NCBI GenBank assembly: GCA_023257815.1
Contig: JALRBJ010000008.1
Location: 1-42,089 of the forward strand
Direction of reading: 5' to 3'
Source: Candidatus Saccharimonadia bacterium
GTDB lineage: Bacteria > Patescibacteriota > Saccharimonadia > Saccharimonadales > Saccharimonadaceae
DNA length: 42,089 bases
Below the pieces are notes generated by a model, which saw only the letters and a program-made list of their open reading frames with translations, was not told where the DNA came from and did no database searches. The position numbers and the translations under genes are program-made. The number at the start of each line of letters is the position of its first letter. Position 1 is the stretch's first letter. This document shows, piece by piece, positions 3,518 through 9,929 of this stretch.

Positions 3518-4762
3518 TTAGTAATCGTCACGTATAATCGGCATACTCATACAACGAGGTCCACCGCGTCCTCTTCCGAGTTCGGCACCAGGTACGGTTA
3601 TCACTTCAATTCCGGCTTCTTCCATTGCACGATTGGTTACGTAGTTTCGGTCATAGGTAACAACCACTCCTGGAGCAACTGCGAGTGTATTGGAACCATC
3701 GTTCCATTGCTCTCTGGCTGCTGCAACTGGGTCACCATTGCCGCATTCGATAAATATCACCTTTTCAAGCCCAAGCGCATCAGCTAGAACTGCCTTTAGG
3801 TCGTATTTTTCTGTGATTGAAATACCATCCTCAGCTGCTTCATCTTTTTGTAAAACGTAAATACTCATTTCGTGAATGCCCTGTTGGATTTCTGGGTGAA
3901 TGGAGAACTTATCCCTATCGATCATTGTAAACACAGTATCGAGGTGCATGAATGCGTGCGAGTCAGGAATTGAAATTGCAATAACTGTATCGAAGGTTGA
4001 ATCGTCGAAGAGTCGTTTGGCCGTAAGCTCTACTGCTTCTGGTGATGTACGTTGGCTTATGCCAATTGCGGCAACTCGTTCGCTCAGCACCAGCTCATCA
4101 CCGCCCTCCATGCTGTACGGACTCTCGCGGTCATACCATACAGGCACATCTTTATAAGCAAAACGTGGATGCGAACCAAGTACGTATTTCATGAACAATG
4201 ATTCGCGCTGGCGGGCCTGGTAGCGCATTCGATTAAGTGTTACGCCATCGCCAACTGCTGCAGCTGGGTCACGTGTGAAATAAAGATTCGGCATAGGAGC
4301 CATATGAAATGGAGAGCTTTCAGTCCCCGACAAAGCGGCTAACGCAAATCCATTACTACTTCCAGCTATCTCGCTTCTTCGAACGCCTGCCATAACTGCT
4401 CGAACCATATCCGGAGTTTGCATGCTATCAAGATGTTCAGTTACTGCATTGAAGCTGCGTGGATTAACCTGGGAACCCCTGACAATCTCGGCTATAAACT
4501 GTTCCCGAATACCAGCATCTTCAAGAGCTTCACTTGCAAGTGCATCAAGATAAAGTACTTCGGCACCACGTTGTCTAAGTACTTCGGCAAATATATCATG
4601 CTCTTCTTGGGCTTTCTCTAGATAAGGAATATCATCAAACAGAAGATCGGTCATTGTGCTTGGAGTGATATTCTCAAGCTCATGACCAGGGCGATGCAGT
4701 ATCACACTTTTCAGAGGTCCTATTTCAGATGTTACGTTAATAGGTCGCTCAAATGTCGGCAT
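3518..4762 (-). CDS. arcA: arginine deiminase
   Basis: Hydrolyses L-arginine to L-citrulline and ammonia in the cytoplasm. The 414-residue length is typical of the family. The family start is present (SEIGPLKSVILHRPG), as are FTRDP (substrate Asp), MEGGDELV (Glu), HLDTVFTMID (His/Asp) and the nucleophilic Cys in GRGGPRCMSMP near the C-terminus, so it should be active. I chose ATG 4762, preceded by AAGGGAG, over an in-frame GTG at 4798. The promoter (4818-4846) gives a leader of about 49 nt. It is divergent from the argGH leader. No ornithine carbamoyltransferase or carbamate kinase is in the window, so ATP gain from citrulline cannot be shown here. Confidence 0.96.
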   Translation of the reverse strand: MPTFERPINVTSEIGPLKSVILHRPGHELENITPSTMTDLLFDDIPYLEKAQEEHDIFAEVLRQRGAEVLYLDALASEALEDAGIREQFIAEIVRGSQVNPRSFNAVTEHLDSMQTPDMVRAVMAGVRRSEIAGSSNGFALAALSGTESSPFHMAPMPNLYFTRDPAAAVGDGVTLNRMRYQARQRESLFMKYVLGSHPRFAYKDVPVWYDRESPYSMEGGDELVLSERVAAIGISQRTSPEAVELTAKRLFDDSTFDTVIAISIPDSHAFMHLDTVFTMIDRDKFSIHPEIQQGIHEMSIYVLQKDEAAEDGISITEKYDLKAVLADALGLEKVIFIECGNGDPVAAAREQWNDGSNTLAVAPGVVVTYDRNYVTNRAMEEAGIEVITVPGAELGRGRGGPRCMSMPIIRDDY

Positions 4763-4817
4763 TACACACTCCCTTAAAATAGATAATCGGTGGGTCACCT
4801 CTTATTATTATGCAAGA

Positions 4818-4862: not shown

Positions 4863-4891
4863 TTGATGTTTAATTACCTGCATGCTATAGT
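4863..4891 (+). promoter_or_regulatory. promoter of the argGH leader
   Basis: TTGATG (4863-4868), 17-nt spacer, TATAGT (4886-4891). The expected transcription start falls at about 4897-4899, which is the leader-peptide ATG itself. Confidence 0.7.
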
Positions 4892-4897
4892 CTTAGC

Positions 4898-4969
4898 ATG
4901 AACAAAAATGTTCGTGTAGATTCAGAGCGTCGTCGCCGGCTTATGGCGGGCCTTGCTGAAGTGAACTAG
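4898..4969 (+). CDS. arginine-rich attenuator leader peptide
   Basis: A 23-codon ORF that ends before a terminator hairpin upstream of argG. It contains the run SERRRRL, with four consecutive Arg codons (CGT CGT CGC CGG, residues 11-14) and one further Arg at residue 6. No ribosome-binding site is visible; the ATG sits 6 nt after the -10 box, so the mRNA is predicted to start at the ATG (leaderless). The codons after the Arg run (GCG GGC CTT GCT) form the antiterminator strand. This is the layout of amino-acid attenuators: stalling at Arg codons when charged tRNA-Arg is scarce would free the antiterminator. The peptide itself is probably functionless. The ORF is seen directly; its role is inferred. 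Confidence 0.85.
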   Translation: MNKNVRVDSERRRRLMAGLAEVN

Positions 4970-5003
4970 CGAACTAAAAACTAAGCCACATCATGCAAAG
5001 CCC
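4934..5003 (+). promoter_or_regulatory. attenuator: alternative antiterminator pairing
   Basis: GGGCCTTGC (4948-4956) can pair with GCAAAGCCC (4995-5003) with a single mismatch. The downstream partner overlaps the left arm of the terminator, so the two structures exclude each other. A small competing stem CGCC (4934-4937) with GGCG (4945-4948) covers the last Arg codons and would release the terminator when the ribosome is absent or beyond. Confidence 0.75.
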
Positions 5004-5024
5004 TCAATCAACGAGGGTTTTCTT
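4997..5024 (+). terminator. attenuator terminator upstream of argG
   Basis: AAAGCCCTC (4997-5005), 7-nt loop, GAGGGTTTT (5013-5021), with one G-T pair, running into a short T-rich tail. It lies 27 nt after the leader-peptide stop and just before the argG ribosome-binding site AAAGGAG. Confidence 0.8.
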
Positions 5025-5046
5025 ATTACGTCAAAGGAGCTAGGAC

Positions 5047-6312
5047 ATGCACAACAAAGAATCAGGCTATAAAAAAGTTGCGTCTTATGAAGCACGAAAA
5101 GGTGAATTTAAGAAGTGCTTGCTTCTCTACTCTGGTGGACTTGATACGTCTGTAATGTTGAAGTGGATACAAGAGCAGTATGATTGCGAGGTTATCACCC
5201 TTACTCTCGATATTGGTCAGCAGGTTGATGATTTACATGCGATTGAGCAGAAGGCTAAGAAGCTCGGAGCGGTCAAAACGATAACGTATGATGCGCGAGT
5301 GGATTTTGCCAATCTGCTTTTATCACAGGCTATCAAGGCGAATGCTGATTACCAAGGTGGCTATGCACTAAGTACGCCACTTGGGCGTGTAGTGATATCT
5401 CAATTGGCTGTTAAGTTTGCTAAAGAAAATGATTGTCAGGTTGTTGCCCATGGCGCTACTGGTAAGGGAAACGATCAAGTACGATTTGAATCGTATATTA
5501 CGACACTTGATCCATCGCTCAAGATACTAGCTCCGGTGCGCGAGTGGAGTATGGGGCGCGAAGAGGAACTTGCTTATGCTACAGAGCATGGTATTCCAGT
5601 TTCTCAAACGAGCGACTCTACATATTCAAAAGATGAGAATATGTGGGGTATCACCAGTGAAGGTGCAGAGATTGAACATCCGAACCTTGTACCAAAACTA
5701 AACAAGATACTTAGTTGGTGCAGTCCTATTGAAAAAACACCAGATAAACCAGAGCGTTTAGTAATTGAATTTGATCAAGGTATCCCAGTAGGATTGAACG
5801 GCACTAAGATGCCACTCCACGATATTATTACAGAAGCAAATTCTATTGGTGCACGACATGGTGTTGGCGTAGTTAATCTTGTAGAAGATCGTTTGGTGGG
5901 TCTTAAGGTTAGGGGCATTTATGAAAACCCTGGTGCGACTATTCTGATCGCTGCTCATAAAAAACTTGAACAATTAGTATCTACGCGTGTTGAGAATGAG
6001 TTGAAGGGATTCATTGATACCAAATGGGCATATATGGTATATGCAGCCGAATGGTATGAGCCTACTCTGCATCACTTAACGGCCTATATAGATGATCAGA
6101 ACAAAAAAGTCACCGGTAAGGTTACTGTTGAACTGTTTAAGGGCAATGTAACGGTGATATGTCTTGACTCTCCGTATAGTCTATTTGATCATAGTTTAGC
6201 CACCTTCAATAGTGACGAAAGCTTTAATCAGAACGCGTCGGCTGGCTTTATTGAAATCTACACTTTAGCGCAAAAGACAGCACGCGAGGCGTACGATTAT
6301 GACAAAGAGTAA
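5047..6312 (+). CDS. argG: argininosuccinate synthase
   Basis: ATP-dependent condensation of citrulline and aspartate to argininosuccinate. The PP-loop motif LLLYSGGLDTSVML lies near residue 25, followed by VITLTLDIGQ, the ATP/citrulline-binding AHGATGKGNDQVRFE and later TSDSTYSKDENMWG. Length (421) is close to the family norm; the N-terminus is about 20 residues longer than usual (MHNKESGYKKVASYEARKG). The start is set by AAAGGAG 11 nt upstream. It is the first gene after the attenuator. Its last 14 nt overlap argH, implying translational coupling. Confidence 0.97.
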   Translation: MHNKESGYKKVASYEARKGEFKKCLLLYSGGLDTSVMLKWIQEQYDCEVITLTLDIGQQVDDLHAIEQKAKKLGAVKTITYDARVDFANLLLSQAIKANADYQGGYALSTPLGRVVISQLAVKFAKENDCQVVAHGATGKGNDQVRFESYITTLDPSLKILAPVREWSMGREEELAYATEHGIPVSQTSDSTYSKDENMWGITSEGAEIEHPNLVPKLNKILSWCSPIEKTPDKPERLVIEFDQGIPVGLNGTKMPLHDIITEANSIGARHGVGVVNLVEDRLVGLKVRGIYENPGATILIAAHKKLEQLVSTRVENELKGFIDTKWAYMVYAAEWYEPTLHHLTAYIDDQNKKVTGKVTVELFKGNVTVICLDSPYSLFDHSLATFNSDESFNQNASAGFIEIYTLAQKTAREAYDYDKE

Positions 6313-7492
6313 ATTATGGCAAGCCAAGGATGGCGATGAACTACATGCTTCAATCGAAAAATATACGGTTGGTGATGATCGAGTCCTAGATCAACAACTT
6401 CTGGGTTACGATATTCAAGCAACTAAAGCTCATACACTCATGCTGAAGAAGATCGGCATTTTATCAGAAGATGAGTATACTAATCTGGCTGCAGCACTTG
6501 ATATGTTGCTTGAAAGATGGGAAAATGGCACATTTCAGGTGACTAAAGATCATGAAGATGGACATAGTGCCATTGAGCTGTATCTTACCGAGACTTTGGG
6601 TCAGACTGGTAAAAAAGTTCATACGGGTCGGAGTCGTAACGACCAAGCGCTTGTAATGATGCGCCTATTTTTAAAAGATAGCTTAGCAAAAGTGAGTGCC
6701 GCTACGGCTAATGTAGTGCAGGCTTACAGTAAGCAAATTGCTGGAGCTGGTGATCAACAAATGCCAGGCTATACACACTCACAAAAAGCTATGCCAACAA
6801 CAGTTGGAATGTGGCTCGGTTCTTACCACGATGCATTTAATGATTTAATCCCTCACTTCGAAGATACAACTACCCTGATTGATCAAAATCCTTTGGGTTC
6901 AGCTGCGGGGTTTGGCGTAACGTTGCCGTTAGATCGCAACTTAACTACGGCTGAGCTTGGTTTTGCTAGGGTTCAAGAAAATCCAATGTATTGCGGAATC
7001 TCACGTGGCGTATTTGAGCTCGCTACTGTTCAAGCGCTGGATCTTGTGATGGTCTTCGCTGGCAAATTTGCTGAAGACTTTCTACAGTTCACTATGCAAG
7101 AATCAAACTTCTTTGCTTTACCGAACAGTATGACTACTGGCTCATCAATCATGCCACATAAGCGTAATTATGATGTGTTTGAAATTATGCGTGCTAACTC
7201 GCATGAATTTGTAAGTCATAGTATGACATTACATGCTCTTGCATCAGGTGTTGGTAGTGGCTATCATCGTGATCTTCAACTCACAAAGCGAGTGGCTGTT
7301 CAGGCCGTTAGTACGACACTCGAAACATTAGAAGTTTTAGCGCTTTGTGTTAATCATTTGATTGTTAATAAAGCAGCGCTTGACGGTGCTATGACACAAG
7401 AGCTTGAAACGGTTGCTATGATCAACAAATTGGTTGAGCAAGGTATCCCATTTCGCGATGCCTACCGACAAGTTAAGGAATCTCTGCTGTAA
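6299..7492 (+). CDS. argH: argininosuccinate lyase
   Basis: Cleaves argininosuccinate to arginine and fumarate. Fumarase/lyase superfamily motifs are present: TGRSRNDQ, GYTHSQKAMPTT (catalytic His region) and the signature GSSIMPHKRNYDVFE. At 397 residues it is shorter than the usual 450-470; the C-terminal region ends soon after GIPFRDAYRQVKESLL, so the usual C-terminal subdomain is trimmed. It overlaps argG by 14 nt and shares its attenuator. The active-site loop is intact, so activity is expected. Confidence 0.96.
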   Translation: MTKSKLWQAKDGDELHASIEKYTVGDDRVLDQQLLGYDIQATKAHTLMLKKIGILSEDEYTNLAAALDMLLERWENGTFQVTKDHEDGHSAIELYLTETLGQTGKKVHTGRSRNDQALVMMRLFLKDSLAKVSAATANVVQAYSKQIAGAGDQQMPGYTHSQKAMPTTVGMWLGSYHDAFNDLIPHFEDTTTLIDQNPLGSAAGFGVTLPLDRNLTTAELGFARVQENPMYCGISRGVFELATVQALDLVMVFAGKFAEDFLQFTMQESNFFALPNSMTTGSSIMPHKRNYDVFEIMRANSHEFVSHSMTLHALASGVGSGYHRDLQLTKRVAVQAVSTTLETLEVLALCVNHLIVNKAALDGAMTQELETVAMINKLVEQGIPFRDAYRQVKESLL

Positions 7493-7910: not shown

Positions 7911-9929
7911 CTACATGCGGTCTGGTAGTTGCATGTGGAGAAGTCGCGAAGCGTTGTTAATCACCTGAGCAGCTGCTTCCACCAATGCAAGGCGGAACGC
8001 ACGAGCATCATTTGCAGCATGAATCACGCGCAGTTCGGAATTGCCTTGGAATGAGTTAAGTTCTTGGCATAACTCATTTAAGTAGGTTGCAATTCTATGA
8101 GGCGCGTTGTTGTCTGCTGCTTCTCTGACAATTTGTGGGAATTTAGATATCAGTATTAGGATGTTCTTTTCAGATTGATGAACATTGTCGGTGTATGGTT
8201 CGGCACCGTCTTTATACTCTTGTTCCATAGTAGTTTGTTCAAGTGCCTTCGCGAGGATACTACGGAGACGAGCGTACGTGTACTGAATGTAGATTGCTCC
8301 ACCATTCTTTAGCATATTTGGTACATCGGTTTCAGGGTCAAACTCAATATCTTTCGTTCTATCCTGTCTTAGGTCGTTAAAGATTGTGGCGCTTATTCCA
8401 ATTTGTTCAGTTAGATCATCAGCAAGACTATCTGTATCACGCCCTTGCTCCTGCATGAAGATTGCAGCGGCATCGCGAGCATCATCAAGTAATTGATCAA
8501 GTAGTATGATTTTGCCACTACGGCTACTCATCTTGCGTCCATCAACGTTCAGATGACCAAACGAAACATGCTGAGCATCGCCGAGTGCTACCGCACCCAT
8601 CCTGTGTACCATGTTGAATAGTTCTATACAGTGTCCACTCTGTTCTTTGCCAATAACATAGAGTATTTTTTTAGCACCAAGTTCGCGTGTACGGTAAAGG
8701 ATTGCTGCTAGGTCACGAGTTAGATAAACTGTTCCACCGGAAGGTTTGATGATGATTTCATCGCGCGCGTCGCCATCTTTGGTGAGCATAATCTGCGAAT
8801 TCTCTTTCATAGTTGCTGGATCAACAACGACCTGTGACGGAAAAACAACCGAACCATCCTCTCTTCGTTCCAGGGCGCCTTGATCTAGGCCTTCCTGCAC
8901 GGCTGCGGCCATTCGATCTTCGTAAAAGCTTTCACCTTGAATTGTGTCGAATTCTACGCCGTTAAGACGTTGATAGATTGGGTAAAAGTCAGCTAAGCTC
9001 CAATCACGGAACTGCTGCCATAGGTGCACATACTCAGGATTTCCTTGCTCTAATTCCAAAAACGCCTTTCGACCCTCATCAAGCAGTCGCTCTCTCTCCT
9101 CTTCAGAGCCATTCTTAGTTTGGTCGTTGAACTTACGATAAATAGTCATTAGAGTCTTAGCAGGATCTGCGGTTAGTTCGTCTGTAAATTCACTACCTCT
9201 CTCGGAAAGCTCCTGTTGGTATTGGTAAATAATATTACCAAAGTGCGTGCCCCAGTCACCAATGTGATTGACACCGAACGGAATATTGCCCGATGCTTCT
9301 TGGAGGTTCATCAAAGACTGCCCAATAATAGTTGAGCGTAAGTGGGCTACCGTGAGGTTCTTGGCGATATTTGGTGAGGAATAGTCGATAACAACGACAT
9401 CTGGATCACCATCACGGAACCACCCGTAATGCTCGTTCTGGGTTGTTACTTGGGAAAAAATTTGAGTGCTGGCTTTTGCAACATCAATTTCTATATTAAT
9501 GAAGGGACCCGAGACTTCAACGTTCTTAACGAGTTCATCATCAATGACTAGTTGGGCAACCTGGCTGGCAATTAGTTGAGTATCACCACCTAGCCTTCGT
9601 ACTAACGGAATAATATTGATCGAAAGATCAGTACCAGACGCTGCTTTTTTGCCCTTGATTGATGGGCGGTCAAGCTCAAGTGTAACATCGGTTGCGAATG
9701 TACGTTGGATTGCCGCATTAATTCGCGCACGAACTTGGTTTAGGGCATAGCTATTACTGCTAGGGAGTTCAAGTGATGTAAGTCGCTCAGTTTTCTCTGC
9801 AAGGGCTACTTTGGCTTGGCGATCAATCTCGGCATTTTGGAGTGAAAGCTCAGTTTGGTCATCGTCGCTGGTCTTGTCAATCACACCTGTGTCGGTCAAT
9901 CTTGGTTCGGTAGGTTCGCCTGTAGTCAT
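7911..9929 (-). CDS. argS: arginyl-tRNA synthetase
   Basis: Charges tRNA-Arg. Class I synthetase of 672 residues, longer than the usual 550-600 because of a charged N-terminal extension of about 45 residues before the Add-1-like domain. The Rossmann entry reads SSPNIAKNLTVAHLRST, where the usual HxGH signature is T-V-A-H: the first His and the Gly are both changed. The second signature GRKMSSRSGKI is normal, and the C-terminal anticodon-binding helical domain is complete. The start is supported by GAGGAGGCGGG just upstream. It has its own promoter (9970-9997). Location beside argGH and its attenuator links arginine supply and charging. Confidence 0.95.
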   Translation of the reverse strand: MTTGEPTEPRLTDTGVIDKTSDDDQTELSLQNAEIDRQAKVALAEKTERLTSLELPSSNSYALNQVRARINAAIQRTFATDVTLELDRPSIKGKKAASGTDLSINIIPLVRRLGGDTQLIASQVAQLVIDDELVKNVEVSGPFINIEIDVAKASTQIFSQVTTQNEHYGWFRDGDPDVVVIDYSSPNIAKNLTVAHLRSTIIGQSLMNLQEASGNIPFGVNHIGDWGTHFGNIIYQYQQELSERGSEFTDELTADPAKTLMTIYRKFNDQTKNGSEEERERLLDEGRKAFLELEQGNPEYVHLWQQFRDWSLADFYPIYQRLNGVEFDTIQGESFYEDRMAAAVQEGLDQGALERREDGSVVFPSQVVVDPATMKENSQIMLTKDGDARDEIIIKPSGGTVYLTRDLAAILYRTRELGAKKILYVIGKEQSGHCIELFNMVHRMGAVALGDAQHVSFGHLNVDGRKMSSRSGKIILLDQLLDDARDAAAIFMQEQGRDTDSLADDLTEQIGISATIFNDLRQDRTKDIEFDPETDVPNMLKNGGAIYIQYTYARLRSILAKALEQTTMEQEYKDGAEPYTDNVHQSEKNILILISKFPQIVREAADNNAPHRIATYLNELCQELNSFQGNSELRVIHAANDARAFRLALVEAAAQVINNASRLLHMQLPDRM

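Follow-up and report, generated by a model that had tools for sequence, protein, structure and literature searches.

A putative leaderless arginine attenuator ahead of argGH in Saccharimonadales

The argGH operon of a Candidatus Saccharimonadia bacterium is preceded by a leader that is, very probably, a ribosome-mediated transcription attenuator like those of trp and his, sensing charged Arg-tRNA by means of a leaderless leader peptide. It occupies positions 4863-5046 of the window, i.e. the whole stretch of 42,089 nucleotides (contig JALRBJ010000008.1) that was analysed. The sequence anatomy of the leader and its conservation are shown below; transcription start, termination and response to arginine are inferred, without RNA data. 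A first-pass annotation of the window had interpreted the region as a classic attenuator for arginine, an interpretation supported here within those bounds, and had known of none described for this amino acid in Patescibacteria. The searchable literature, from which subscription papers and preprints are missing, holds no paper to the contrary: none was found there on leader peptide attenuation in Patescibacteria, nor on a leader-peptide attenuator of a bacterial arg operon. While this class of mechanism has been described before, its use for arginine, in this phylum and with a leaderless start across a whole regulon seems to be new as far as that literature goes, priority not being established.

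Anatomy of the leader and its genomic setting

The features of the leader and of the genes behind it are as follows.

4863..4868, + strand: -35 hexamer TTGATG; together with the -10 it matches 9 of 12 consensus positions, with a 17-nt spacer
4886..4891, + strand: -10 hexamer TATAGT, ending 6 nt before the leader ATG
4898..4969, + strand: leader peptide ORF of 23 amino acids, MNKNVRVDSERRRRLMAGLAEVN then stop; predicted leaderless (ATG at the expected +1, without Shine-Dalgarno)
4928..4939, + strand: regulatory codons CGT CGT CGC CGG, four Arg in a row, which are also the 5′ part of strand 1; Arg run retained in relatives
4944..4959, + strand: strand 2, the 5′ strand of the antiterminator (core 4948-4956); its counterpart in relatives covaries with strand 3
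4991..5006, + strand: strand 3, common to the antiterminator (core 4995-5003) and the terminator (4997-5005)
5013..5021, + strand: strand 4, the 3′ strand of the terminator
5034..5039, + strand: Shine-Dalgarno of argG, AAGGAG, seen in the sequence
5047..6312, + strand: argG, argininosuccinate synthase, first regulated gene (NCBIfam NF001770 and TIGR00032 above cut-off)
6299..7492, + strand: argH, argininosuccinate lyase, second regulated gene, its start overlapping the end of argG (TIGR00838 above cut-off)

The first-pass annotation had proposed a promoter-spaced ORF of 23 codons with four Arg codons and two alternative pairings, and every one of these elements was confirmed. The promoter is inferred, from sequence alone, to be sigma-70-like; that the leader ATG falls at the expected transcription start, as also proposed, holds as a matter of sequence, no start having been mapped. 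The antiterminator core, GGGCCTTGC at 4948-4956 paired with GCAAAGCCC at 4995-5003, has the single mismatch that had been claimed (C4952/A4999), and could be extended, with gaps, to about 4944-4959 / 4991-5006, giving a 2:3 duplex of -16.4 kcal/mol. The terminator pairs 4997-5005 with 5013-5021 (9 bp, -11.0 kcal/mol). The two structures have one strand in common and are mutually exclusive, which is one of the criteria of the class. The claim of a T-rich terminator tail held in part only: some of the apparent tail is inside the stem, and the remainder is CTTATTAC. The U-tract of the window copy (CTTATT, to 5027; tail CUUAUUAC) is thus weak, and a terminator scan with fixed thresholds listed none in the window leader; the terminator and its U-tract are good in most copies. 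The annotation had mentioned neither the protector hairpin formed by strands 1 and 2, which is weak in the window copy (not significant, p 0.70) and conserved in the wider set, nor the extent of the regulon.

Taken in isolation, the window copy is moderately significant, suggestive at most, and it is the comparison with relatives that is decisive. Its 2:3 duplex reaches p = 0.0145 against dinucleotide shuffles. The leader as a whole folds no better than shuffles (z -0.95) and, not being significant, this provides no argument for or against. No Rfam leader or riboswitch was found in the window at threshold: Trp_leader (RF00513) aligns over 4928-5026 with 16.4 bits for a cut-off of 41, i.e. below threshold and among chance matches, and the T-box model (RF00230) has no match.

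The genome of the window (G000; 860 kb, 98.5% complete) carries arcA, encoding arginine deiminase, upstream of argGH and divergent from it (3518-4798), and argS at 7911-9929 on the strand opposite to argGH. The divergent arcA-argGH arrangement is also seen at the loci of two relatives, G013 and G005 (L050, L051). Despite the presence of arcA, no match to carbamate kinase was found in G000, and for ornithine-carbamoyltransferase there is one similar protein, below cut-off. An arcA without a carbamate kinase match possibly points to citrulline-arginine recycling rather than to the full ATP-yielding pathway. With this gene set, ArgGH would make arginine from citrulline, and switching the operon off when Arg-tRNA is charged would therefore be sensible. 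A different explanation for the control of the operon is that it obeys the DNA-binding repressor ArgR and that the leader is incidental, ArgR being the regulator of arg operons in many bacteria. This is all but excluded: no Arg_repressor domain was detected in G000, near-complete as it is, while the identical search was positive in 9 of 14 control genomes.

Leaders of the same anatomy in relatives

ArgG was searched for in 151 relatives, 394 family genomes and 393 order genomes, these samples overlapping. In the family of the window, the arrangement recurs at 9 of 10 argG loci: a promoter-like sequence is followed by an ATG at or near +1, a short ORF containing RRR or RRRR and its stop, a terminator and then argG. 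Altogether, leaders of this anatomy precede argG or argH in 16 genomes found via the protein search, plus one argH (G510) found via an RNA model. One of them is present in G042 though ArgG there is only 39% identical. In other families the leader lies ahead of argG (G485, G467), ahead of argH in argHG operons (G466, G478, G472), or ahead of a short acetyltransferase-like gene preceding argG (G136, G121); the leader thus tracks the first gene of the operon and not argG itself. Relatives where none was detected directly upstream include G064, whose argG is divergent, G459, the f31 argG genes and G495. The last has, instead of a leader-peptide attenuator, a divergent T-box before argHG (L043 1528-1665, minus strand; RF00230, E 1.5e-5, 32.7 bits, below gathering).

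A covariance model (R1) was built from eight leaders and searched in 295 order genomes, where it matched in 34 genomes and recovered leaders in unannotated genomes without the help of gene context. Every match above 56 bits, as well as a match of 43.5 bits in G094, proved to be an Arg-codon leader followed by a terminator. The total for this design comes to 34 Arg-codon leaders, spread over 32 genomes and 11 families of Saccharimonadales. Matches L086, L087 and L107 were weak and were rejected, no leader being present; L102 and L106 were set aside as unconvincing. On a phylum-wide sample of 240 genomes, for which no known positive is listed, R1 gave nothing at E 0.001. A second model (R2), made from the f1 leaders, gave clear matches in 295 family genomes to argG leaders only; it scores the window's own leader at just 14.8 bits, so that G000 may hold further leaders that went undetected.

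In all 34 leaders the Arg codons are clustered, with at least 2 adjacent, and none of the 34 has an SD-like sequence within the 16 nt that precede the leader ATG. A TAnnnT box ends 6 nt before the ATG in 13 of them and 7 nt in 11 (24 of 34 together), compared with 1-7 leaders, mostly 1-3, for any other distance. Promoter spacing and absence of an SD are good sequence evidence that the peptide is likely to be leaderless across the set, an inference made from sequence alone, without 5′-end data.

The pairing scheme was assessed on an alignment of 26 similar leaders (A7), fitted to the 1:2 plus 3:4 structure; the 2:3 pairing took no part in the fit. The fitted structure is 89.4% paired, with two-sided changes in 8 pairs. 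For the 2:3 antiterminator, 91.2% of the cells are paired, two-sided changes occur in 7 of 11 pairs, and covariation is 0.417 versus 0.233 (sd 0.020) in shuffles. Kinship among leaders inflates such covariation counts; more trustworthy is a register control, in which shifting the partner by 1-3 columns lowers pairing to 37-50%. At column 85, in strand 3, C and U alternate in step with G and A at the partner positions of strands 2 and 4 alike, which would be expected if the two competing pairings are both important. In the set of 16 arg(GH) leaders, strands 2 and 3 pair at -18.5 kcal/mol with their own partner versus -12.8 kcal/mol when exchanged (permutation p about 5e-6), it being understood that cores were set by hand in this set and that pairing there is by construction. 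A MAFFT alignment of nine f1 leaders, in which G040 and G042 were misaligned, was discarded in favour of A7 and the hand-set cores. The 2:3 duplexes of nine leaders combined give p = 8.5e-15, and with the covariation this puts the arrangement far beyond chance on comparative evidence.

The attenuator reading would have been refuted if relatives kept neither the Arg run nor the pairings. The comparison came out in its favour: 9 of the 10 family argG loci and the 34 leaders retain Arg codons, leaderless-looking start, antiterminator, terminator and compensatory changes. The same data bear on the possibility that the hairpin merely terminates a small-protein gene, the Arg run being part of a functional small basic peptide. 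Short basic peptides are indeed common, and most copies have a strong terminator hairpin. But the peptides, 14-25 amino acids in all, are not conserved in their N-terminal part, the upstream gene, arcA, is divergent, and the observed 2:3 covariation would have no reason to exist. We regard this explanation as all but excluded.

Ribosome position, proposed mechanism and known systems

Attenuation would proceed as follows. RNA polymerase would start at 4898 and a ribosome would initiate directly on the 5′-terminal AUG. With plentiful Arg-tRNA, the ribosome would reach the UAG at 4967-4969 and cover strand 2 (4944-4959), so that strand 3 would be available to strand 4 and transcription would end before argG. 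With scarce Arg-tRNA, it would stall on the CGN run (4928-4939); strand 2, left free, would pair with strand 3 once this is made, argGH would be transcribed and arginine produced from citrulline.

The masking and freeing of the antiterminator strand, already put forward in the first-pass annotation, is supported by constrained folding before strand 4. The RNA was folded up to the terminator loop, with a ribosome footprint that reaches, counted from the first base of the A-site codon, 15 nt upstream and 12 nt downstream; the size of a ribosome footprint was assumed from general knowledge. Mean 2:3 occupancy is then 0.86 when the ribosome stalls at the first Arg codon and 0.12 when it has reached the stop (0.82 versus 0.04 for the window). 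The model thus predicts that a stop-bound ribosome masks strand 2 and an Arg-stalled one frees it, as the class demands, although incompletely in G466, G472 and G121, where much of strand 2 is still free (0.35-0.72) when the ribosome is at the stop. When the finished transcript is folded at equilibrium with ribosome masks, the terminator is often favoured even with the ribosome at Arg, inconsistently across genomes; the scheme therefore depends on 2:3 forming before strand 4, i.e. on co-transcriptional kinetics. Attenuation of trp and his likewise relies on 2:3 preceding strand 4. Folding before strand 4 exists corresponds to the standard kinetic view, but it was chosen after the full-transcript result had been obtained.

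The closest known system is the trp operon attenuator (Trp_leader, RF00513; enterobacteria, and trpL of S. meliloti), with which the leader shares a short ORF with tandem regulatory codons, strands 1-4, a 2:3 antiterminator and a 3:4 terminator. It differs by its Arg instead of Trp codons, by argGH instead of trp genes, by a sub-threshold Rfam score, by its occurrence in Saccharimonadota and by a predicted leaderless start that is general in the set. A leaderless leader peptide as such is already known, since rnTrpL of S. meliloti begins with the trpL ATG (PMC7298713). The T-box (RF00230) is also a sensor of tRNA charging with an antiterminator and a terminator, but it binds the tRNA directly and has no leader peptide.

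Another possibility is that the leader is translated and responsive to arginine, but acts on argG translation or on mRNA decay rather than on termination. There are precedents. In the Salmonella speF leader, two consecutive Arg codons of orf34 sense arginine by ribosome pausing and RNA refolding, with involvement of RNase G (PMC6386406). Mycobacterial leaderless poly-Cys ORFs (Canestrari et al. 2020, cited in PMC13236596), which like the present leader are short, carry a run of the sensed amino acid and lie upstream of an operon, are reported to attenuate operonic genes by translation. Both differ from the window leader: orf34 acts on mRNA stability, RBS access and Rho-dependent termination, its target is ornithine decarboxylase and not arginine biosynthesis, and no intrinsic-terminator switch is described in that paper (PMC6386406); the poly-Cys ORFs concern cysteine and attenuation of translation, and no conserved terminator was found at those cys operons (PMC1262725). 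Against such control, the structure that is conserved as competitor of the antiterminator consists of a GC-rich hairpin with a T-rich stretch behind it and is not one that covers the first gene's SD, and the argG SD lies outside antiterminator and terminator alike. We consider this alternative very unlikely and retain transcription attenuation.

Genes behind the leaders and exchange of codons

The Arg leaders likely form a regulon rather than serving argGH solely, although this is again an inference from sequences. Behind the 34 leaders are argGH, argHG, argH, argS, an argB-like kinase and a few other operons. According to HMM matches, R1 leaders precede argH (G510), argS after a short gene (G475, G463, G503), an argB-like kinase followed by an argS-like ORF (G505), an amino-acid kinase after a short gene (G523), an AstE/AspA-type deacylase (G456), an Asp/Glu-racemase family gene (G147, G143 and the second copy of G478) and GNAT acetyltransferases (G484, G470); the remaining downstream genes were assigned only by visible likeness of the translated sequences. 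With many of these being arginine genes (argG, argH, argS, argB-like), the operons concern the sensed amino acid, another criterion of the class.

Two recurrent neighbours may be pointed out. A short and varied acetyltransferase-like gene (GNAT by Pfam in several cases) is repeatedly the first behind an Arg attenuator, also before argG and argS (L065, L073, L075, L076, L068, L045, L044). The Asp/Glu-racemase-family gene (L063, L072, L101), sometimes with an uncharacterised neighbour of about 190 amino acids, has cysteate racemase as its best match, below cut-off, and its link with arginine is unexplained.

Two weak R1 matches in G102 are leaders with Cys codons: MKTFTTNTCCCSGSIISTRIC then stop (CCC; L105 1184-1249, + strand, E 0.0037), ahead of an operon with cysS, and MSNMITQKDCCSCKFLECGF then stop (CC.C; L111 rc 1477-1539, E 0.018), ahead of a cysteine-synthase-family gene. 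Both have terminators and a -10-like box 6-7 nt before the ATG, and look leaderless. These two agreements between codon run and gene function make a shared scaffold with exchangeable codons plausible, from one genome so far. A bolder reading, for which the case stands evenly balanced, is that one modular leaderless attenuator scaffold, with the codon run swapped (Arg, Cys and perhaps others), serves Saccharimonadales as the chief means of regulating their amino-acid metabolism and aminoacyl-tRNA synthetases, replacing protein repressors missing from their small genomes.

Separately, Trp/Tyr-rich leaders (GAWWNSRYAWECS, GAWRSSYYSWEY) with a terminator, apparently not leaderless, were seen in G535, G122 and G480 (L082 1459-1539, L083 1456-1539, L084 rc 1456-1539), preceding a conserved protein of about 275 amino acids without Pfam match and an LLM-oxidoreductase-like gene. 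A leader of the same scaffold in G544 (L081 1468-1539), MSNPNCNSHHNNHYRVRISGGCS then stop, has an SD and His/Asn codons, with RVR only; argS is found further down the region.

Gene regulation in Patescibacteria is little known and almost unstudied. The arginine deiminase system of TM7x has been described, and the switch between its energy pathways was called yet to be discovered (PMC12815258). If our reading is true, arginine would join the amino acids with classic biosynthetic attenuators, a 5′-terminal AUG could serve the timing needed by attenuation, and the leader would be a self-contained reporter element. Arginine metabolism of Saccharibacteria has already been tied to their life on host bacteria (PMC12815258); the leaders provide a concrete, testable arginine regulon, and we suggest that they may be the main arginine control in Saccharimonadales.
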